From positions 1 through 46,495 of the forward strand of contig JAICKN010000002.1 of the NCBI GenBank assembly GCA_025927855.1: a stretch of DNA of 46,495 nucleotides, written 5' to 3'. The first letter of the stretch is position 1. Every line of letters begins with the position of its first letter. The notes below the pieces were generated by a model. The model was not told where the DNA came from and searched no databases. It was given only the letters and a program-made list of their open reading frames with translations. Below are positions 6,915-32,499 of this stretch, in pieces. The translations under genes were made by a program, and so were the position numbers. Origin of the DNA: Terriglobales bacterium (lineage in GTDB: Bacteria; Acidobacteriota; Terriglobia; Terriglobales; Acidobacteriaceae).

Positions 6915-8627
6915 TCACTGCGCCGCACCAGGGGATGCCTGTTTCTGCAAGGCCAACTGCAACACGCTATGATGCTTGTCGCAAACTACATGCAGAACAT
7001 TTCCAGTACCGGAATCCAACCGCACATCAATGGTTTTTGATTGGTCGTAGTGGTCGGCGGGCGATTGCACGCGCACGTGAATCTGATGCGCCCCGGAAAG
7101 AACTTTTAAGCTGCTGCGCACCGTTCCTTCCATTGTGTGAAATAGAAGCGCAAAAGGTTTGTTTTGTCCGTGAATAGCCTCTGTGAAGACCACCTCCCGG
7201 TCGAGCCAGATCGTGGCGCTGCCCTGCCCAAAAGGATGCTGAATATCTATTTGTAATTCTGCCGCCTGGGCCGGCGGAGGCGCAGTTTTACTTTCGCCAA
7301 TTTTCGCCGAGACCGAAACAAGCCTGGCGGCGCGGGATTTCGGCCGGGTCTTAACCGGCTGCAATAGAGCATCCGGCACAATCGCTGCCTGCCTGGCAGC
7401 ATTTTGAATACCGGTGGCCCAGTCGGAACTGACAACCTGCCGGGGATATTGGAAGTTTGCCGCAGAAATCTTCCAGCGGTCCGGTAGTCCTAACCAGCCT
7501 AAATATAAAATCCCGAGGGCTAGTGCAAGAGTTGCTACCAGTGTAATGCCCCGCGAGCGTAGCGGAACGTTCCGGCGCTGCGTGGAAGAAGCGCTGTGCG
7601 GAACGCCTGAAAAGCTGGCGGAAGACCTGGCTTCGTTTACGAACGAGATGTGTGCGGCGACAAATGAATCCCGGTCGCTGTCAGCGCCTGTTGGCAGAAC
7701 AGGCGGAGTGGCATCTTTTGCAAGAGCCGGGTTTTCCATGGCGGCGACCAGGCCCGGGAGTAAATCCTCTTCGCTCTGCGTGGGTTTATCGGATGTTCGC
7801 AGAGCTTCGATGTCGCGCGCCAGCTCTCCCCCGGATTGGTACCGTTCTGTAGGTTCTTTTGCCATGGCCTTGCGAACAATCCGGTCAAGCTCGGCGGGAA
7901 GCTCGGAATCGAGGGCGCTTACAGGAATCGGTTCCCGGTTGACTACTTTGAAACACACCGTAGTGGCGCTGTTTCCCTGGAACGGGCGGAAGCCAGTCAG
8001 CATTGTGTAAAGAATTACGCCAACAGAAAATAGATCGGAGCGCGCATCCACCCCTTCGCCGCTTAATTGTTCCGGCGCCATATATGCCGGACTGCCCAGG
8101 ATTTCTCCGGGCTGCGTCATGTGCGCGACGTTCAAGCGCGCTATTCCGAAATCCGCGACTTTAGCATGGCCATCGCGGGTCACAAGAATATTGGCGGGCT
8201 TAATATCGCGATGCACAACTCCCTGCGAGTGGGCGTAGTCGAGGGCCTCGGCCAATTCCTGCACCAGCCGGAGCGCCACTCCCGTGGGCAGCTTTTTGTT
8301 TTGCGCATTCAGAAGTTTGCTCAGGGACTGGCCAGCCACATACTCCATGACGATATAGGGTTCGCGCGTCGTCGGCTCTTCACCTACGTCAAAAATTGTG
8401 ACAATACCGGGATGCGAAAGGCGTCCGGCAGTTTTGGCTTCCATGAAGAAGCGTTCCCGATATTCAGCTTCGTCGTCAGTTTCGCGGCCAATCAAGCAGA
8501 TAGTTTTGATCGCGACCAGACGATCAATTTTCGGATCGCGCGCCTGGTACACCAATCCCATTGCCCCGCGGCCAATTTCCGCGATGATTTCATACCGGCC
8601 CACACGTGTGCCTACGCGCCATTCCAT
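6915..8627 (-). CDS. Hanks-type Ser/Thr protein kinase, membrane-anchored, catalytically intact motifs
   Basis: IGRGAMGLVYQA, VAIKTI, GVVHRDIKPANILV, ADFGIARL, MAPEQ, then one TM segment (GITLVATLALALGILYLGWLG) and an extracytoplasmic domain. Confidence 0.95.
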   Translation of the reverse strand: MEWRVGTRVGRYEIIAEIGRGAMGLVYQARDPKIDRLVAIKTICLIGRETDDEAEYRERFFMEAKTAGRLSHPGIVTIFDVGEEPTTREPYIVMEYVAGQSLSKLLNAQNKKLPTGVALRLVQELAEALDYAHSQGVVHRDIKPANILVTRDGHAKVADFGIARLNVAHMTQPGEILGSPAYMAPEQLSGEGVDARSDLFSVGVILYTMLTGFRPFQGNSATTVCFKVVNREPIPVSALDSELPAELDRIVRKAMAKEPTERYQSGGELARDIEALRTSDKPTQSEEDLLPGLVAAMENPALAKDATPPVLPTGADSDRDSFVAAHISFVNEARSSASFSGVPHSASSTQRRNVPLRSRGITLVATLALALGILYLGWLGLPDRWKISAANFQYPRQVVSSDWATGIQNAARQAAIVPDALLQPVKTRPKSRAARLVSVSAKIGESKTAPPPAQAAELQIDIQHPFGQGSATIWLDREVVFTEAIHGQNKPFALLFHTMEGTVRSSLKVLSGAHQIHVRVQSPADHYDQSKTIDVRLDSGTGNVLHVVCDKHHSVLQLALQKQASPGAAQ

Positions 8628-8854: not shown

Positions 8855-9340
8855 CTAGAAGCGAAGCACGATGCCGGTTGAGAAGCGGACGTTCTTTTTG
8901 TCGGTAAATCCGTTGAAACGGGTGACCATCCAGTCGAATTGACCCAGGCGCCACGCTATCGGGCCCGATCCCATATCCACGCCACCGCCGTACAGCATAA
9001 CGAACCCGGTATTGCTAACCCCGCCGCCAGAGGCGGTTCCGCCTCCAAACAACGCATGAGCAAAGGGCTTCAGAACCGGCAGCCGCATAGCGACTTCGGG
9101 GCCGAAGGTATAGGTGTGGAACTTGAATCCGGATTTGTACGCGCCGCTGAGGTCGGCCCGAATGCCGAACCAGTTGTTGTAATTACCGGTCAGAGCGGCG
9201 TTCCAGCCATTGGCGTTGGTGCCCGCATCCAGGTGAGTGTACTGATAACCGCCGAAAATCTCTGCTTTGGGCTCTGCCAGGGCTAGGGTAGTCATCAAGA
9301 GCAGCCCCAGAAACAGCGAAAAGCTGAGTAACTTACGCAT
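8855..9340 (-). CDS. Outer-membrane beta-barrel protein
   Basis: MRKLLSFSLFLGLLLMTTLALAEPKAEIFGGYQYTHLD...FSTGIVLRF; AAGGAG SD just upstream of ATG at 9340. The track ORF to 9514 is probably overlong. Confidence 0.75.
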   Translation of the reverse strand: MRKLLSFSLFLGLLLMTTLALAEPKAEIFGGYQYTHLDAGTNANGWNAALTGNYNNWFGIRADLSGAYKSGFKFHTYTFGPEVAMRLPVLKPFAHALFGGGTASGGGVSNTGFVMLYGGGVDMGSGPIAWRLGQFDWMVTRFNGFTDKKNVRFSTGIVLRF

Positions 9341-9619
9341 TTTCAACTCCTTGAAAGGAAATAGTTCGACACCATCGAAAAACTTGTGCCGAAAATATTG
9401 GAAATGAACGGAAGAACTATGACAAGTAACTGAAGACAAAGCAGTTGGGCCTTCCGTAATGGTGGAAGTGAAGCCCATTCCCGGTTCTTTGCATACCGCA
9501 ATTGCTTTTTCCACAGCATAGATGCCCGAACAAAGCGTGATTTTTGGTCATCCGCACTTTTCCGCAGTACTGCAAGGCTTTTAACTGCAAAAAGAAGGTT
9601 CACCAGAACAGCTCCGGCG

Positions 9620-12600
9620 ATGATTGACCGCTTTCCCGGGTTCGTCTGCGGAGCCACCAGAAACGGGGCTATGGCCGGGCTCATGCTTATACCGCTTTTC
9701 AGATTCAATTTCTCGAGCCTGCTCAACATTTCGCGGCGTCGGGAACGCTTGCATATTCAGCTTCTGCGGGCCATTGCGATTCCGGCCCTTGTAGCCATCT
9801 GCAATGCGCCCCTGTTTTCTCAGACAGCGCCGGGATGGACCCCCCTTGGACCGATAGCATCTCCATCCGATGCTTCAGGAACAGGCCTGCAAGACTATGG
9901 CGTTGTTGCCGGGCGCGTGACTTCTGTCGCCATTGATCCGGCGGACAAGAGTGGCAATACGGTTTATATAGGCGCGGCCAACGGCGGAGTATGGAAGTCG
10001 GTCAATGCCGGATCGGCCAGTCCAAACCCGGCGAACATAGTATGGAAGCCGCTGACCGACAACCAGCCGACGCTAGCCATTGGAACCATCGCGATCCAGC
10101 CGGGGAACAGCAATCCATCTACGAGCGTGGTTCTGGCAGGCACGGGAGAGGCCAACAGCTCCGGCGATTCCTACTACGGGCGTGGAATATTGCGCTCGCA
10201 GGATGGCGGCAACACTTGGACGCTGATCACACAGGCGACAACAGGGCAATCTTTTGCCGGGCTGGGATTCAGCAGAATCGCATTCAGCAGCACCAATAAT
10301 CAGATTGTGGTGGCTGCGACTACGGCCACAGCGCATGGGATCACGAGTGGCCTGCTTGACCCTTCAGCACAGAATCGTGGCTTGTACTACTCCACCGACG
10401 CAGGCCAAACCTGGAATTTCGCAGTGCTCAACGACGGCAGTGTGGCGGCAGTTCCGGAATCGGCAACATCTGTGGCATATGACGCCACCGCAAATAGGTT
10501 TTTTGCTGCAGTCCGTTTCCACGGATTCTATTCATCCGCCGACGGCGCGAATTGGACGCGGCTGGCAAGCCAGCCGGGCGGCGCACTGCTCGCAAGCAGC
10601 GTTTGCCCGGCAACTCCGGCGTCGAATGCATGTCCCATTTATCGCGGAGAGCTGGCCGTGGTTCCGGGACGGAATGAAATATATGCGTGGTATGTGGATG
10701 CCGCGAATACCGACATGCATATATGGCAGAGCAAAGATGCGGGCGCCTCCTGGCAGCCCATCCATGACAGCGGCATTACAAATTGCGGCGATCCCTTTGC
10801 CGGATGCGGCACTGCCAACGCGCTTTATGGAATGGAACTGGCAGCAGTTCCGAACGGCGCTACTGCAACCGATCTTTACGCGGGCGCGGTCAATATCTAC
10901 AAATGCCAAATCAACAGTGTCGTGCCGGATTGCAGCAGCACCGGTGCCAATCAGTTTGTGAATTTGACGCACGCGTATGGATGTTCGCCGCTGGCCTCTA
11001 CGGCGCATGTGCATCCCAATCAACACGGGGTAGATTTTTTGGTCGTGGGCGCCAAAGACGTCATGTACTTTGCCAATGATGGAGGAGTCTATCGCGCGCT
11101 GGATGGATTTACCGGACTGAATACCGGGACCTGTGGCTCTGCCAACCAGTTCGATGATCTCAACCAGACACTCGGCTCTCTAGCCCAAGTGGTCAGCTTC
11201 GCGCAATCCACGCCGGACATGAACACGATCCTGACAGGAACGAAAAGTAATGGTTCATTGGCAATTGGATCGGCTGAGAGTGGCCCCACATGGTCTCCGG
11301 TGAATGGCAGCGATGGAGGCTACACGGCGATTTTTTCCGGCAGCCCGCCGGAGTGGTTTACAGAAAATTCCGGCGTCAGCATCCAGCGCTGCACGAAAGC
11401 AAGCGCATGCCGTTCATCGGACTTCTCAATGGTTGTTACGGCATCGAAGCTCGGCGGAGATCAGGCCGGAGTATTTACGCCTTATGTTCTCGATCCGCAG
11501 GCGAAAACGAGCGAACTGATTGTGGGCACGTGCCGCGTATGGCGGGGAGCGGGAACAGGTACCGGTTTTACTGCGCTGAGCAGCAGCTTCGAGACAGGCT
11601 CGGGAGGATGCACTGGAGCTGAAATCAACAAAGTGCGAGCGCTGGCCGTGGGCGGCCCGAGGGACAGCAACGGTTTTTCCAATGTGATTTATGCCGGTAC
11701 GGATGGACTCGGACCTAATGCGGGATCAGCATCGCAAAAATCGGGAAGAGTCTGGGTAACAACGAATGCGGCAGGCGGCCCATCGTCGTGGGTAGAACGA
11801 ACCGGCGCGACCAACCCCAATAATTTTCCGATTTCGAGTATTGCTCTTGATTCAAGTGACGGCACCGGGCACACGGCGTATACGGCGATCATGGGATTTC
11901 ATGTCTCGCGGGTGTGGAAGACTACGAGCGCCGGAGTTTCATGGACCGATTTCTCGGGATCAGGTGCTTCCGCGCTGCCGGATGCTCCTGTGGATGCGCT
12001 CGCGCTCGATCCGCAAACCAGCACTTTATACGCAGGGACCGATGCGGGAGTATTTTCCAGTCCCACGTCAAATCCGGCGTGGACACAAGTAGGCCCGGCC
12101 AGCAGTTCGGGAATCGCGGGTTTCTTGCCGGACGTTCCTGTAACCGCCCTGCAGATTTTTACGGGGAGCGGAATCAAGCGGTTGCGTGCTTCCACCTATG
12201 GCCGCGGAATTTGGGAATTCCCCCTGCCCACCGGGCCGGACTTCCAGATCGCAATGCCTGTGGTTTCGCAGGATATTTTTCCGCGCCAGACAGCGGCCTT
12301 CAACGGTACCGTCAGCGCGTTCAACGGCTACAACGCAGACGTTACGCTGACCTGCACTGCCGGCAGCACTTCTCCGCCAGCCGTGTGCTCGTTCGCGCCC
12401 GCTACGCCGTTTGTTCCTTCAAGTTCAGGTACCCCATTTACGCTGACGGCAACGGGCGCAATTGGAGATTATTTCTTCGAGGCGCACGGATCGGGGGACG
12501 ATCCCAATACAACGACCCACTCGCTTGCGGCAGCCGTGCACGTCATAGACTTTGCGATTGGCGCTCCCTCGCCGGGAAGCGTAACGGTTCCACGGGGCAC

Positions 12601-23844: not shown

Positions 23845-24573
23845 TTATTTGGCGGCAGAAGCCCGAAGGATTTTTTCAATCCGCCGCAAGTCTTCTTCCG
23901 TATCCAGCCCGACCGTATCGAAGGGTGTTTCAGCCACGTGGATGGCCATGCCGTTTTCGAGAAACCGCAGCTGTTCCAGCCGTTCGCTTCTCTCCAGAAA
24001 CGATTCCGGAAGGGCGACAAAGCGATCCAGCGCTGGTTTGCGGTACGCATAAAAGCCAAGGTGTTTGTAATACGGCGGGTGAGTTCCGTCGCGGTCGTAC
24101 GGAATTGCGGCGCGAGAAAAGTACAGGGCCCTCCCGTTGCTCTCAGTTACCACTTTTACAGCGCTGGGATTGGGAATGTCTTCATCGCTGGCGGGCGTTT
24201 TCAAAGTGCCAACTTGTATTGCTGGATCGCTCATTAATTTGAGCAGGGTTGCGACATGCTCGCTGCGCGTGAGCGGTTCATCTCCCTGAATATTCATGTA
24301 CACATCGGCGGGAATGGAATTGGCAATTTCGCGCACCCGTTCCGTCCCGCTGCGATGTTCCGCCGAGGTCATAGCCGCGCGGCAATTTTCCGCCTGGCAT
24401 ACCTGCATAATCTCCGCAGAGTCGGTCGCGACAATCACCTCATCGAGTAACTGCGCGGAGTGTACCGCGCGATAGACCCTGACAATGAGGGGCACGCCCT
24501 CAATTTCCCGCAGCATTTTTCGCGGCAAGCGGGTTGAACCCAACCGCGCGGGGATTACACCAATGGCCTTCAT
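23845..24573 (-). CDS. kdsB: 3-deoxy-manno-octulosonate cytidylyltransferase
   Basis: IPARLGSTRLPRKMLREI, VIVATDS, SGTERV, NIQGDEPL, YFSRAAIPYDRD, KHLGFYAYRKPALDRF, VDT-like GLDTEEDL. Confidence 0.96.
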   Translation of the reverse strand: MKAIGVIPARLGSTRLPRKMLREIEGVPLIVRVYRAVHSAQLLDEVIVATDSAEIMQVCQAENCRAAMTSAEHRSGTERVREIANSIPADVYMNIQGDEPLTRSEHVATLLKLMSDPAIQVGTLKTPASDEDIPNPSAVKVVTESNGRALYFSRAAIPYDRDGTHPPYYKHLGFYAYRKPALDRFVALPESFLERSERLEQLRFLENGMAIHVAETPFDTVGLDTEEDLRRIEKILRASAAK

Positions 24574-24861: not shown

Positions 24862-27444
24862 ATGTCGAATAAACTTGGCCGATTTGAAATTTTGAGTGAA
24901 ATCGCCAGCGCCGGGCCGATTTCCCTGTATAAAGCGTCCGACGGCGAAGGCAGTCAGACCGTCGCGTTAAAGGTACTGGATCTGGCCACCCTGGGAGAGC
25001 AGTCAGGCGCGCTGGTGAAAGAGTTGACTGGCGAAGCTGAAGCAAGCAAAGCGCTTAAAAGCGGAAACATTGCGCAACTCCTCGCCGCGGAGGAAATTGA
25101 AGGCAAGTTTGTCGCTTCCATGGAGTATGTGCAGGGCAACAGCATCGCCACAATGATGGCGCGGAACGAAGGCTTTTCTATTTGGGACCTGCAGGACATC
25201 ATCCGGCAAAGCTGCCAGGCGCTCGACCACGCCCATACCCGGAAAGTAGCGCACCATACGCTTGAGCCGGCAAAAATCATGGTCACATGGGACGGCTCGA
25301 CCAAGATTTTGAGCTACGGCGTTTCTTTAATGAGCGCAGCTGCGGCCAAGGCTGAAGGTGCGGTTCCTGTCGTTTTGCGTTACATGTCGCCTGAGCAGGT
25401 ACGCGGCGAAGCCATTGACATCCGTTCGAACATCTTCAGTCTGGGCGTCATCATGTACGAAATGATGGCTGAACGCAAAGCGTTCGGTGAGGAAGATGCC
25501 GCCAAGCTCCGCAAGCAGATTCTTGAAGAATCGCCGGCGCCGCCGGAGCAGTTCAACCCAAAAATTTCTGATGCGTTAAGCGCGCTCATCACCAAGGCGA
25601 TGGCGAAAGACCCGGCCCAGCGGTACCAGAGCGGTCAGGAACTGATCAGCGATCTGGAAAAATGCAAGAACCAGCCAGCCTCGGCAGCGGCGAAGTCCAA
25701 AGAACCTGCCCGTGGATTTACCGCTCCCGTGAAGGCGGCTGGATTTGCAGGAAGCTCGAATGGCAGCAGCAAACCCGCGAGCGCCGAGCCGGTACAGAAA
25801 AAAACAGAAACATCTGCGACTGCCGACGGAGCTCCCCAGCAAGAGACAGAAACAAAAGCTCGCGCAGCAGCCGCGGGATGGGGCGGCGCTACCACAACCA
25901 CGGCTGTCGCTAATTCGGTAACGGTGAGCGAGCCGGCCGGCAGTCCAACATCACCGGCCAGCGCTGACTCTGCCGGTGCATCTCCGGCGAACACGTCTTC
26001 TTCCGGCACCTCGTCTTCCAGCGGGGCTTCCATCAGCAAATCAGTGGAGAAACTCTCCTCTACTGCGGAAGTGGAATCTCCTGAGAAGGCTGCGCCCGCT
26101 ACGCCCAAAATTGCAGTTGATCCATTAATGGCGGAGCCGCAGAAAAGCGGAGCCGCAAAGCACAGCTTTTCAGAAATCAATGAACTGCCGCCGCTCAAAG
26201 AAGTTTTTGTTGCTCCTCCGGCCGCAGTGGCTGAACCGGAACTTCCCGAGCAGCCCGAGATTACGATTAAAACTCCCGCTCCGCCCGAGAAGCCGAAACT
26301 CCCGCCGCGCGTCGTGGCGCAAAGAGCAGTTAAAGAGATCAAAAAGACCCCACCGCAGTTATTTGTTTATGCCATTGCAGCGGCGGCGCTCATCATGCTG
26401 ATTGTCGTAGGCAGCATTGCTTACCGCATTCATTCAGGCAACAGCGACGATGATGGATATCCGGCGCCGGCTGCCCAGGCGCCAGCTCCGAAGCCACGCG
26501 CTCCTGTCACGGCTCCGCAAGTTGCTCCGGCCTCGATTCCGCCGTCGGCCTCAATCCCCGCAGTTCCGGTGCAGGAAGCACAGCTTCCGCCATCTACCGC
26601 CGCTCCTGCAGCGGCTGAGGCGGCGCCAACAGAGGAAGCAGCCGACAATCCGCCCAACTTTTCCGTTAAGCCCAAAGCTTCCAGAGCAACCAAGGCCGGC
26701 AGGAAACGGAGCTTCCGCGGCAGGTCTGCCGCCCCGGCGGTGGTTCCGGGGGAATTAACCATCAACACCACACCCGCGGGAGCCGAGGTCTCCATAGATG
26801 GACAAAAAGACCCGAGCTGGGTAACTCCCTTCAACATGGGTGGAGTTCCTCCGGGGCAACATACCATCACTGTGAGCAAGCCGGGATTTGGATCTGAAAC
26901 CCGTGCGATCAATGTGAGCGCGGGAAGCAAGGCGATTCTTGTTCTGGAGCTTGCCTCCACCAGCGCGGTTTTTGCTTTTAATTCCACCCCCGAGGGCGCG
27001 GAAATTTGGATGGACGGCCGCAATACCGGCCACGTTACGCCTGCCCAGATTTCAGTGGAGAAGGCCGGCAGCCACACCGTGACCTTCAAAAAGCAGGGCT
27101 ACCTGGAAGAACCGATTACAGCAAATGCTCAATCCGGGCAAACGGCGCGTATTTTTCACGTGTTGAAGATTTTGGGCGTTACCGACGAGATCCATTACAA
27201 GAAAATGTTTGGCGGCGGCAAGTCGAGTGGCATGGCAACCGTCAGCATCAAAACCGACCCTAAAGGGGCGCAGATCGCGGTCAACCACCGCGTGCTGGAA
27301 AAGAACACGCCCGCAGAGTTTTACCTGAATCCGGGCACTTATGTGCTCGATATCACAATGTCGGGACATAAGAGCATTCACCGCGTCATCACCCTCGAGA
27401 AAGACGGGAAGTTCAACCTGGAGCAATCTCTGGATAACGAATAG
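24862..27444 (+). CDS. Ser/Thr kinase-like protein (predicted pseudokinase) with TM segment and C-terminal PEGA repeats
   Basis: Kinase fold sequence with substituted HRD and DFG motifs; low-complexity linker; TM (LFVYAIAAAALIMLIVVGSIAY); three PEGA-like units (GELTINTTPAGAEVSIDGQ, AVFAFNSTPEGAEIWMDGR, ATVSIKTDPKGAQIAVNHR). Confidence 0.92.
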   Translation: MSNKLGRFEILSEIASAGPISLYKASDGEGSQTVALKVLDLATLGEQSGALVKELTGEAEASKALKSGNIAQLLAAEEIEGKFVASMEYVQGNSIATMMARNEGFSIWDLQDIIRQSCQALDHAHTRKVAHHTLEPAKIMVTWDGSTKILSYGVSLMSAAAAKAEGAVPVVLRYMSPEQVRGEAIDIRSNIFSLGVIMYEMMAERKAFGEEDAAKLRKQILEESPAPPEQFNPKISDALSALITKAMAKDPAQRYQSGQELISDLEKCKNQPASAAAKSKEPARGFTAPVKAAGFAGSSNGSSKPASAEPVQKKTETSATADGAPQQETETKARAAAAGWGGATTTTAVANSVTVSEPAGSPTSPASADSAGASPANTSSSGTSSSSGASISKSVEKLSSTAEVESPEKAAPATPKIAVDPLMAEPQKSGAAKHSFSEINELPPLKEVFVAPPAAVAEPELPEQPEITIKTPAPPEKPKLPPRVVAQRAVKEIKKTPPQLFVYAIAAAALIMLIVVGSIAYRIHSGNSDDDGYPAPAAQAPAPKPRAPVTAPQVAPASIPPSASIPAVPVQEAQLPPSTAAPAAAEAAPTEEAADNPPNFSVKPKASRATKAGRKRSFRGRSAAPAVVPGELTINTTPAGAEVSIDGQKDPSWVTPFNMGGVPPGQHTITVSKPGFGSETRAINVSAGSKAILVLELASTSAVFAFNSTPEGAEIWMDGRNTGHVTPAQISVEKAGSHTVTFKKQGYLEEPITANAQSGQTARIFHVLKILGVTDEIHYKKMFGGGKSSGMATVSIKTDPKGAQIAVNHRVLEKNTPAEFYLNPGTYVLDITMSGHKSIHRVITLEKDGKFNLEQSLDNE

Positions 27445-27644
27445 CCCGGGTGGCAAATAGCTGTACCTGCCGGTATTTCCTCGCCAATTCCCGCCGTGGG
27501 CTGCCCGTGTGGCCATTTGCGACTTCTTGCCTCCTTGCGCATCCAATACCAGTGTTAGGATAGTAAGTACCTGCGCTGCGGAGCCCAGGATCGGCGCACT
27601 TGCCATTGCGCCTTCAACCCGCAGCCGCCAACCATGGAGGAACG

Positions 27645-27974
27645 ATGGCAAGCGAAGCAATTATTGAAGTAACAGATTCGAATTTCGATCAGGATGTTCT
27701 CAAGTCAGAGCAGCCGGTTCTGGTAGATTTTTGGGCCACTTGGTGCGGTCCGTGCAAAGCGATTGCGCCAATCGTAGACGAGCTTGCCAAGGAATATCAC
27801 GGCAAAGTCAAGGTCGGCAAAATGGATGTGGACCGCAACAGCTCCACGCCCATGCGCTATGGCGTTCGCGGCATCCCCACGCTGCTGGTATTCAAGGGCG
27901 GCCAAGTGAAAGAACAGATTGTTGGCTATGTGCCGAAGGAGACCATCCAGAAGGCCATTGATAAACACGTCTAA
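27645..27974 (+). CDS. trxA: Thioredoxin
   Basis: VLVDFWATWCGPCKAIAPIVDELAKEY...GIPTLLVFKGGQ; start at MASEAIIEV. Confidence 0.97.
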   Translation: MASEAIIEVTDSNFDQDVLKSEQPVLVDFWATWCGPCKAIAPIVDELAKEYHGKVKVGKMDVDRNSSTPMRYGVRGIPTLLVFKGGQVKEQIVGYVPKETIQKAIDKHV

Positions 27975-29936: not shown

Positions 29937-30077
29937 AATAGACCGTTTCGGACCGTAAATTCTGAGGCCCGGCACCAAGGTGGCTGCCAAAAGCAGCCGT
30001 TGACGCGGGTTGGCCCCGGCATTTACGCTGCCCAAGGTGGGCACGGAAGTCACGTGGGGCGGGGGAAATTCAGGTTC

Positions 30078-30797
30078 ATGACTACCCATTCCAGGCTTGC
30101 GGATGGCCCTTTCCAGGGTACTTACGACACGCAAAGGGTACAACGAAAACAGACTTTTGCCGCATCTGACCTAGTGCGGCCGGAAAAGCCGGATTTGACG
30201 ACCGCGAGAAAAGTACAGGGCAACGGACTTACCGAAGCAGAGGCGATCGAACGCGCCAAGCAAGGAGATGCAGAGGCCTTTCAGGCGCTCTACAACCTGC
30301 ATAAGCGCAGGGTGTACTCGTTATGCTTGCGCATGACCTCAAACACAGCGGAAGCCGAGGATCTGACGCAGGAAGCTTTCCTCCAACTGTTCCGCAAGAT
30401 CAGCACCTTTCGCGGCGAGTCGGCTTTTTCCACCTGGCTGCACAGAATGTCAGTCAACGTGGTTTTAATGCATCTGCGCAAGAAGGGCCTTCCGGTAGTT
30501 CCGCTCGAAGATACGATAGAGACCGAGGAAGATGCGCCGAAAAAGGAGCCCGGCGCGCCGGACGTCCGACTGGCAGGAGCAGTAGACCGGTTGCAGATAC
30601 AGCGCGCCGTAGACGCTTTGCCGCCGGGGTATCGGCAGATTTTTGTGCTGCATGATGTAGAGGGGTATGAGCACAATGAGATTGCTGAGATGGTGGGTTG
30701 CTCCATCGGCAATAGCAAGTCGCAGTTGCATAAAGCGCGTTTGAAGTTACGGGAGCTTCTTCGCCGGAACCGGGCTGGAAAGTACGGTTACCGGTAA
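30078..30797 (+). CDS. ECF-type RNA polymerase sigma factor (ORF open to 30000)
   Basis: [64 protein letters not shown]...[49 protein letters not shown]. Confidence 0.95.
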
Positions 30798-30830
30798 GAG
30801 TTCCGGGGGAATGAACGGGAGAGAGGCAGT

Positions 30831-31547
30831 ATGGACTGCGAGCAGTTTAATCAGGTCCTGCCGGAAATCATTGACGGCCAGGTCCGCGACTTCTCCAGGG
30901 AAGACCGGATCGGTGTGCTGGATGGCCAGCAGAATGAATACGAACAGCATTTAAGGGCTTGTCCGGAATGCGCGGAATTGATGGCCGATCTGCAGATGAT
31001 CTCCATCCAGGCGCAGAGCCTGCATGGTGAAGAGGAACCCAGCCCGCGCGTATGGAACCGGATTGAGATCGCGCTCCGGCAGGAGGGGCTCATCCATGAA
31101 ATTCCTCAACCGGAAATCGTCTTCAGCAAGGTCCCGCGCCGCTGGCGTATTCCCCGCTTTGTGCCCATTGCCATCGCCGCATTGATCGTCCTGAGCGCGG
31201 TGGGCTATAAACGCCTTTCGGCTCCGCCCCAGGCCGGGGACAAAGTTGCAGTGGTTGCCACTCCAGCGGTGAAGAATGAGCAGGCAGCGACGGCCAAAGC
31301 AAAAGTTTTCCGCGCCAGGAATGCCGTAAAAAGCGACCAGGACTTTCTCGCGCTGGTTGCGGCGCGGCGGCCCAATATGCGCGCCAAGTATGAACAGGAT
31401 TTGCAGCGCGTGAACGCCTACATTCAGGACGCGGAGAATTCCGTGGAAATGGATCCCAACGATCAGTTGGCGCAACAGGATTTGATGGACGCGTACCAGC
31501 AGAAGGAAGTGATGTACCAGTTAGCTTTAGACCGCTCTTTGCCGTAA
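30831..31547 (+). CDS. Zinc-finger (ZAS) anti-sigma factor, membrane protein
   Basis: HLRACPECAELM (HxxxCxxC), one TM segment (FVPIAIAALIVLSAVGY), 34 bp downstream of the sigma gene. Confidence 0.85.
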   Translation: MDCEQFNQVLPEIIDGQVRDFSREDRIGVLDGQQNEYEQHLRACPECAELMADLQMISIQAQSLHGEEEPSPRVWNRIEIALRQEGLIHEIPQPEIVFSKVPRRWRIPRFVPIAIAALIVLSAVGYKRLSAPPQAGDKVAVVATPAVKNEQAATAKAKVFRARNAVKSDQDFLALVAARRPNMRAKYEQDLQRVNAYIQDAENSVEMDPNDQLAQQDLMDAYQQKEVMYQLALDRSLP

Positions 31548-31617
31548 AGTTTGGGATGAGATTGCGTTGCGCCACGTCACTCTGCCGGGACAACAAAGAA
31601 TGCAGAGGATAAAGCAA

Positions 31618-32499
31618 ATGGCAGCAAAACGTAGCATGGGGAGAGGATTCATGGACAGCAGAACCCGTACGATCACTGTGGCCGCAGGGATCGTGCTTAT
31701 TGCGGCAGTCATCGCCTCCGGCGAAACAAAAAAGGAACTCCGTTTCCCCGTGGGACGCAAAGCCATGGTCTCCATCAGCAACGAATATGGCCCCATTTCT
31801 GTAAAGCCCAATGCGGGCAGAGAAGTCGTCATTACCTTCACAACGTATTCCGACAAGGTGGATATTGCGCAATCCCAGCGGGGAAACCGCATTAACGTGA
31901 CCGCCTATCCCCGGGCGGGAGCCGACGCCCAGACCGGGCGCGTGGATTTTGAGGTTTTGGTCCCGGCAGATGCCAGCATGACTTTGCGCACCAACTCCGG
32001 CAGCCTGCACGTGGAGAGATTACGCGGCGACGTGAGCCTGGAAGAAACCGCCGGCGATGTGGATGTGCGCGACTTCAGCGGAGCGCATGTGCATATCAAG
32101 ACGCTCGACAGCCCCATCATGCTTACCAATGTTCATGATGGCCACGTGGATATTACTTCCGTGGACGGCAGCATCGTTCTGAATGCCGTAAGTGGACCGC
32201 TGGTCCAGGTCAACTCCACAAGCGGTAACATCCAATATGACGGGGACTTCGGCGCGGGAGGCGAATATCTGCTCAGCAGCCATACCGGAAATATTGATGC
32301 CATCGCTCCCTCATATGCGTCCATTGATGTCGTGGCCAGTTCGGTCAATGGGCAGGTCATCAATGACTTCACCCTGCAGCCTGAGCGTGTTCCGTTTATC
32401 TCGCGGGCCGGGAGTGCCTTCGCGGGTACCATGAACAAGGCGGCTTCGCAGGTAAAGTTGCTCTCCTTCAGTGGTAGAATCCACCTCAAGAAGCGCTGA
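31618..32499 (+). CDS. DUF4097-type beta-helical repeat surface protein
   Basis: Repeated GSLHVERLRGDVSLEETAGDVDVRDFSG...VDGSIVLNAVSGPLVQVNSTSGNIQYDGDF...SGRIHLKKR. Start at 31618 or 31651 uncertain; ORF opens at 31567. Confidence 0.8.
   Translation: MAAKRSMGRGFMDSRTRTITVAAGIVLIAAVIASGETKKELRFPVGRKAMVSISNEYGPISVKPNAGREVVITFTTYSDKVDIAQSQRGNRINVTAYPRAGADAQTGRVDFEVLVPADASMTLRTNSGSLHVERLRGDVSLEETAGDVDVRDFSGAHVHIKTLDSPIMLTNVHDGHVDITSVDGSIVLNAVSGPLVQVNSTSGNIQYDGDFGAGGEYLLSSHTGNIDAIAPSYASIDVVASSVNGQVINDFTLQPERVPFISRAGSAFAGTMNKAASQVKLLSFSGRIHLKKR

Follow-up and report, generated by a model that had tools for sequence, protein, structure and literature searches.

For most bacterial pseudokinases no function has been established. 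MviN of Mycobacterium tuberculosis (ActPs3) is a membrane-linked Ser/Thr pseudokinase with a link to the cell envelope and a linker that recruits FhaA (PMC12599244). EssB/YukC of type VIIb secretion is a transmembrane pseudokinase that possibly serves a membrane export machine (PMC12599244). The eukaryotic proteins STRAD-alpha, ILK, and CASK provide precedents for cation-free or altered nucleotide binding that survives the loss of Mg2+-binding residues, and CASK is catalytically active (PMC4718504). The bacterial pseudokinase families distinguished in a review from 2025 are ActPs1-3, GLW, CP1, DYD, and DLHK (PMC12599244).

The stretch of DNA analysed here, hereafter the window, comprises 46,495 nucleotides of the genome of a Terriglobales bacterium and encodes a pseudokinase with PEGA domains, for which MviN and EssB/YukC may, by analogy, be the closest working models. 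However, MviN is missing the beta3 Lys (VALT), does not bind ATP, and belongs to a family with an activation-loop deletion (PMC12599244), whereas the beta3 Lys and alpha-C Glu are invariant in the lineage of the window pseudokinase and its layout ends in PEGA domains. EssB/YukC comes from a different phylum and has strongly degraded motifs (LDMR, TRG), a reduced activation loop, and no PEGA domain. None of CASK, STRAD-alpha, and ILK pairs the Lys-to-Glu and Asn-to-Lys changes described below with PEGA.

The window pseudokinase matches none of the seven reviewed families as they are set apart by their descriptions, each of which differs from it in at least one tested feature (PMC12599244). Its beta3 Lys is kept in all 38 kinase domains compared, whereas in ActPs1 all three catalytic residues are substituted, in ActPs3, the MviN type, all three catalytic motifs are degraded, and in ActPs2 the beta3 Lys is changed to Arg and the HRD Asp to Asn, the latter being Ser or Thr here. 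DYD has Arg for the beta3 Lys and no alpha-C Glu, both of which are retained in 38 of 38 domains; GLW carries GLW in place of HRD and Leu or Trp in place of the beta3 Lys, where the window's lineage has H-x-S and VALK. CP1, which is fused to COG3899, and DLHK have no transmembrane region, unlike the protein described here, and DLHK also keeps the HRD Asp that the window pseudokinase has lost (PMC12599244). No paper combining a pseudokinase with a PEGA domain was found among the open-licence papers searched. The protein apparently represents an undescribed family of dead kinases with a distinct layout, and a genuine one rather than a broken gene.

Domain organization and catalytic motifs

The 860-residue protein is composed of a Pkinase domain, a long linker, a single transmembrane helix, and three PEGA domains (Table 1). 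The first-pass annotation had proposed a pseudokinase with PEGA repeats, and both domains score above the curated Pfam cut-offs. Pkinase (PF00069) matches residues 23-257 with 104.1 bits against a cut-off of 31.7 (E 1.1e-29). PEGA (PF08308) is found in three stretches of the protein (E 1.4e-33), and each copy reaches 39.7-47.1 bits against a cut-off of 20.8 in a genome-wide scan. The anticipated transmembrane helix is also predicted. The profile of the PASTA kinase PknB/Stk1 (NF033483) gives 192.8 bits, below its threshold of 450 bits.

Table 1. Features of the pseudokinase gene and of the second kinase gene in the window
Feature	Position	Strand	Evidence
Pseudokinase-linker-TM-PEGA3 protein, 860 aa	24862..27444	+	Uninterrupted frame; Pfam Pkinase and PEGA above cut-offs; orthologs in 22 genera
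Pseudokinase domain, residues 7-268	24880..25665	+	Pfam; PDB sequence search (PknB best); AlphaFold; Foldseek (PknB)
Degenerate glycine loop IASAGPI, residues 14-20	24901..24921	+	Motif table; first Gly missing in 38/38 of clade
VALK, beta3 Lys37 kept	24961..24972	+	Lys in 38/38
Alpha-C Glu58 kept	25033..25035	+	Glu in 38/38
Trp108, helix E start, clade-specific invariant	25183..25185	+	38/38 of clade, 0/23 active relatives
HHTLEPAK for HRD[IV]KPAN: Asp to Thr, Lys to Glu135, Asn to Lys138	25252..25275	+	Sequence; Glu135 and Lys138 in 38/38
Trp143, beta7-beta8 turn, invariant	25288..25290	+	Alignment of the window's lineage
SYG for DFG	25312..25320	+	Sequence; Asp gone in 36/38
SPEQ (APE-equivalent) retained	25387..25398	+	Sequence; motif table
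VDPLM element, upstream of linker motif	26116..26130	+	Conserved island inside variable linker
Linker motif SFSEINELPPLKEV, residues 435-448	26164..26205	+	37/37 full-length orthologs
Transmembrane helix (predicted), residues 500-521, preceded by a basic stretch	26359..26424	+	Sequence; juxtamembrane block conserved
PEGA 1	26749..26952	+	Genome-wide PEGA scan
PEGA 2	26980..27165	+	Genome-wide PEGA scan
PEGA 3	27235..27438	+	Genome-wide PEGA scan
Ser/Thr kinase with HRDIKPAN and DFG, apparently active; distant paralog, no PEGA	6915..8627	-	Sequence; Pfam; pairwise comparison

PknB is the best match in a sequence search of the PDB, the top matches of which are all ordinary kinases. It is also the closest structural match of the AlphaFold model of the kinase domain (pLDDT 79, pTM 0.79), with a Foldseek TM-score of approximately 0.8. 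The predicted structure is thus in line with the earlier expectation that the kinase fold is kept.

The motif changes read from the sequence in the first-pass annotation are all present. The segment equivalent to HRDIKPANILV is HHTLEPAKIMV (25252-25284), in which T, E, and K replace the catalytic Asp, the catalytic-loop Lys, and the Mg-binding Asn; DFG has become SYG and the glycine loop IGRGAMG has become IASAGPI, and the VALK lysine and SPEQ remain. The Asp of subdomain IX (DxRSD), which was not part of that description, is also replaced (Asn190). By the sequence criterion, a pseudokinase lacks at least one of the beta3 Lys, HRD Asp, and DFG Asp; here the HRD Asp is replaced by Thr and the DFG Asp by Ser. 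Judged from these residues, the protein very probably does not carry out phosphotransfer. The kinase on the opposite strand of the window, to which the motifs had been compared as an intact paralog, does have intact HRD and DFG motifs, but it is only 28% identical over the kinase domain (E 4e-39) and has no PEGA domain.

Conservation of the losses and origin of the family

A search of 41 relatives yielded clear orthologs that are 46-62% identical to the window pseudokinase. Applied to 150 genomes from the bacterial family of the window, a profile built from seven orthologs identified 39 loci in 38 genomes with scores of at least 360 bits; the next group, mostly active PEGA kinases, scored at most 282 bits. 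Orthologs sharing the losses are thus present in 38 of the 150 genomes and in 22 genera. Beyond the family, evenly drawn samples of the class (299 genomes) and of the phylum (396 genomes) contained no further members, and the one extra-family match in those samples (G392) is an active-type kinase with HRD and DFG. The sole match in a scan of named GTDB contigs was a distant active kinase from Candidatus Uabimicrobium amorphum. The phosphomannomutase encoded in the window shares 58% identity with that of Granulicella tundricola and no more than 42% with the other plasmid matches listed, which points to Acidobacteriota as the likely phylum.

Within the window's lineage, residues were counted over 38 complete kinase domains. 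The position of the HRD Asp is occupied by Ser in 35 domains and never by Asp. The catalytic-loop Lys is replaced by Glu and the Mg-binding Asn by Lys in all 38, giving the catalytic-loop signature H-x-S-L-E-P-A-K-[IV]-M. Gly or Ser substitutes for the DFG Asp in 36 domains (it is kept in G125 and G064), and Asn substitutes for the Asp of subdomain IX in 34. No domain has lost the beta3 Lys37 or the alpha-C Glu58. Two fixed charge changes beside two fixed ancestral residues argue for a rebuilt pocket rather than drift, and since identical losses recur across 38 genomes, the substitutions are far from chance. Pairwise dN/dS of the kinase domain, calculated by the Nei-Gojobori method with some pairs saturated at synonymous sites, is 0.03-0.15 among the pseudokinases and 0.02-0.16 among the active relatives. 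The ratios indicate that the pseudokinase clade is under purifying selection. The losses proposed from the single sequence therefore recur in its orthologs, and almost certainly define a conserved pseudokinase family.

A single clade (FastTree support 1.0; IQ-TREE 100/100) unites the 45 sequences that lack the HRD Asp, and no member of it retains that residue; it is sister to the active PEGA kinases; orthologs with intact HRD and DFG, which would have pointed to local decay, were not found. The window's lineage, with the full set of changes, has 40 members when its most basal one, G006, is counted (97%). The other five form an intermediate sublineage (96% bootstrap), in which DFG and the Mg-binding Asn are mostly kept and the loops resemble HPxL[KR]PxN. 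The intermediate sequences L126 (G096), L131 (G042), L125 (G043), and L119 (G094) have lost the HRD Asp and kept the Asn, and they retain DFG (DYG in G094), with loops of the form HPxL[KR]PxN or HRNFKPGN. The simplest account of the tree is one loss of the catalytic base, with the remaining changes following later. G043 and G096 each carry one active and one intermediate-type copy, which indicates a duplication that preceded or accompanied the loss.

Among active kinases, the nearest relatives of the pseudokinase are PEGA kinases from other genera, with 35-37% identity in the kinase domain. Active PEGA kinases of the sister clade (G002:C3:23886, G024:C4:337017) likewise consist of a kinase domain, linker, transmembrane helix, and three PEGA domains, but unlike the pseudokinase they have intact HRD, KPAN, DFG, and glycine-loop motifs and no SFSExxELPPLKEV. 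The window's lineage, in 38 genomes, and the high-scoring active PEGA kinases, in about 28, share a single genome (G141), so that the two are almost mutually exclusive. The window genome has eight Pkinase matches, of which five retain both HRD and DFG, one is partial, and two, including the protein described here, are degenerate. Its other PEGA matches are confined to contigs C101 and C205, neither of which bears a kinase; within the 90% completeness of the assembly, the genome therefore has no active PEGA kinase. The losses provide a natural experiment, in which catalysis was lost once and the active sister, intermediate, and rebuilt lineages are all alive in one bacterial family.

The second degenerate kinase of the window genome (G000:C22:41990-42691, minus strand; L161, 467 aa), with HGHLKPAN and SFG, apparently stems from a separate loss. 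In the related, distant pseudokinase L044 (G004:C114:25616-26386), an in-frame TAA interrupts the kinase domain, and the gene is probably decaying there. An active kinase gene elsewhere in the window genome (G000:C96, about 8988-9722; L156) adjoins an open reading frame resembling a PP2C-type phosphatase.

Linker motif and altered kinase surface

Only one island of the 200-residue linker can be aligned; it consists of VDPMM and, further on, SFS[ED]xxELPPLKEV[YF]. The motif is present with small variations in all 37 full-length orthologs and is missing from the intermediate and active groups. A DNA pattern search for the motif gave exactly one match in each of the seven ortholog-bearing genomes, no match in the other 34 of the 41 genomes, and no other protein sharing it.

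The residues R101, G104, S106, W108, D109, D112, and W143 of the kinase domain are invariant or nearly so in the window's lineage and variable or different in active kinases. Besides the linker motif, the lineage has gained a new, invariant patch on the surface of the C-lobe. W108 and the linker motif are both present in the basal G006 and both missing from the intermediate group, in which W143 is present. The AlphaFold model places W108 at the start of helix E and W143 in the beta7-beta8 turn. In kinase structures these two elements are neighbours, and in MAP kinases they make up the docking groove. This surface may be where the linker motif, or else a binding partner, docks. In an AlphaFold prediction of the kinase domain with the linker, based on an alignment of three sequences only, the motif is disordered and undocked (pLDDT about 33).

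The positions equivalent to Leu33 and Asp76 of PknB, numbered after the engineered mutants named in solved PknB structures, have also changed. The first is Ile or Val and the second is Asp in 23 of 23 active relatives; in 38 of 38 pseudokinases there is no large hydrophobic residue at the first and no Asp at the second, and the residues found instead are Gly, Ser, or Ala. In PknB, Leu33 and Asp76 lie in the back-to-back dimer, and their loss therefore makes a PknB-type dimer of the pseudokinase unlikely. A role in autophosphorylation has been proposed for this dimer of PknB (PMC6333020).

Gene neighbourhood and proposed role

A gene for an FHA-GAF-nucleotide cyclase lies directly downstream of the active PEGA kinase in 13 of 26 loci examined. 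Strong matches to it occur in 16 genomes of the active group, one of them at G002:C3:26011-27642; all 38 genomes with a pseudokinase lack such a match. The active PEGA kinase and the cyclase likely form a kinase-cyclase module. At one locus (G019:C20:313996-317163, L043), a tandem pair of active PEGA kinases precedes the cyclase gene.

Upstream of the pseudokinase loci, on the opposite strand, is an operon of two FtsX/MacB-type permeases, an HlyD-type adaptor, and an ABC ATPase. The first permease was detected in 22 of the 26 pseudokinase loci whose upstream sequence extends for 5 kb or more, and at nine loci it is head-to-head with the pseudokinase gene within 231-543 bp. The divergent operon is found at none of the active loci and at none of the five intermediate-type loci. 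In the window, the pseudokinase gene sits between kdsB (divergent, 23845-24573) and the thioredoxin gene trxA (27630-27974), and the operon is on another contig, C213, with an FtsX protein 73% identical; the linkage is therefore broken here and is not obligatory. None of the window neighbours (kdsB, trxA, M48, PMM, and others) recurs near any pseudokinase ortholog, and the conserved neighbours of the pseudokinase include no gene for an active kinase.

The protein is best read as a single-pass inner-membrane pseudokinase. It goes back to a single event, in which a PknB-type Ser/Thr kinase with PEGA domains lost the catalytic Asp, and in the window's lineage it would later have been re-specialised as a non-catalytic signalling scaffold. 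Because a basic stretch precedes the transmembrane helix, the kinase domain would be cytoplasmic and the PEGA domains would be outside the inner membrane, where they may be in contact with the envelope or with a ligand in the periplasm. The pseudokinase domain, which might bind nucleotide in the absence of Mg2+ by means of Lys37 and the new Lys138, would hold a cytoplasmic partner through a C-lobe patch and the SFSExxELPPLKEV motif. The state of the envelope would be relayed by binding rather than by phosphotransfer, by analogy with MviN or EssB/YukC. The likeliest client would be the MacB/FtsX-type ABC exporter encoded by the divergent operon of most relatives, which is the weakest step of the proposal.

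A probability of about 0.5 is assigned to the whole reading, that is, a PknB-type PEGA pseudokinase of single origin, re-specialised as a non-catalytic scaffold with the exporter as its likeliest client. A scaffold or switch as the main role is slightly favoured, in keeping with the envelope-binding scaffold or allosteric sensor suggested previously, which is plausible; the exporter as client is tentative. It is doubtful whether the full extension of the idea holds, in which the Lys-to-Glu and Asn-to-Lys pocket binds nucleotide or another ligand without Mg2+, the PEGA sensor is coupled to a MacB-type exporter via the docking motif, and this phosphorylation-free sensor replaced the active kinase and FHA-cyclase pathway. 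The family makes the conversion of a sensor kinase into a binding switch testable, with the residues and the motif to be probed already named.

Four rival explanations are less probable. The protein could act allosterically, joining an active kinase, for example the one encoded at 6915-8627, in a back-to-back heterodimer of the PknB type and so turning that kinase on or off. Eukaryotes commonly pair a pseudokinase with a kinase, and the genome encodes five kinases with intact HRD and DFG, but the loss of the Leu33 and Asp76 equivalents from all 38 pseudokinases leaves pairing with the 6915-8627 kinase without specific support, and active kinase genes are not among the conserved neighbours, which makes such a partnership unlikely. 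Comparably improbable is an unusual catalysis, either Mg2+-independent phosphotransfer as in CASK or a different reaction as in SelO or SidJ, for which the invariance of Lys37, Glu58, Glu135, and Lys138 in 38 of 38 domains would speak. CASK keeps the HRD Asp, which is gone here, and the base position holds no acidic substitute, being Ser in 35 of 38. CASK works without cations despite missing the DFG Asp, but its glycine loop, degenerate in the window pseudokinase, is intact (PMC4718504). SelO and SidJ reuse the kinase pocket but keep a DFG-type Asp (PMC12599244), which is lost here in 36 of 38 domains.

In another scheme, PEGA binding is itself the function and the kinase fold is just a folded cytoplasmic anchor with no signalling role. 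The gene in the window is not bound to one operon, and PEGA was described from surface proteins (PMC2447325). An idle anchor should drift, however, and the pocket and the lineage-specific surface residues are invariant, with dN/dS as low as in active kinases; a plain tether is accordingly quite improbable. Local decay or an assembly error might be suspected from the fragmented genome (315 contigs, 90% complete) and from the in-frame stop of the distant relative in G004, but it is ruled out by the intact frame of 860 codons, the same substitutions in 38 genomes, and dN/dS well below 1. The scaffold reading is preferred.

At ten loci the region downstream of the pseudokinase carries a gene for a protein with a transmembrane helix and a C-terminal TonB domain, for example on the minus strand at L041 (G015) and L042 (G006), the G006 copy matching PF03544. 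Some of these proteins have an apparent receiver-like region at the N-terminus. Positions 30000-32499 of the window contain consecutively the genes for an ECF-type sigma factor, an unassigned 238-residue open reading frame, and a DUF4097 protein, an arrangement resembling a sigma/anti-sigma unit for envelope stress close to the pseudokinase.
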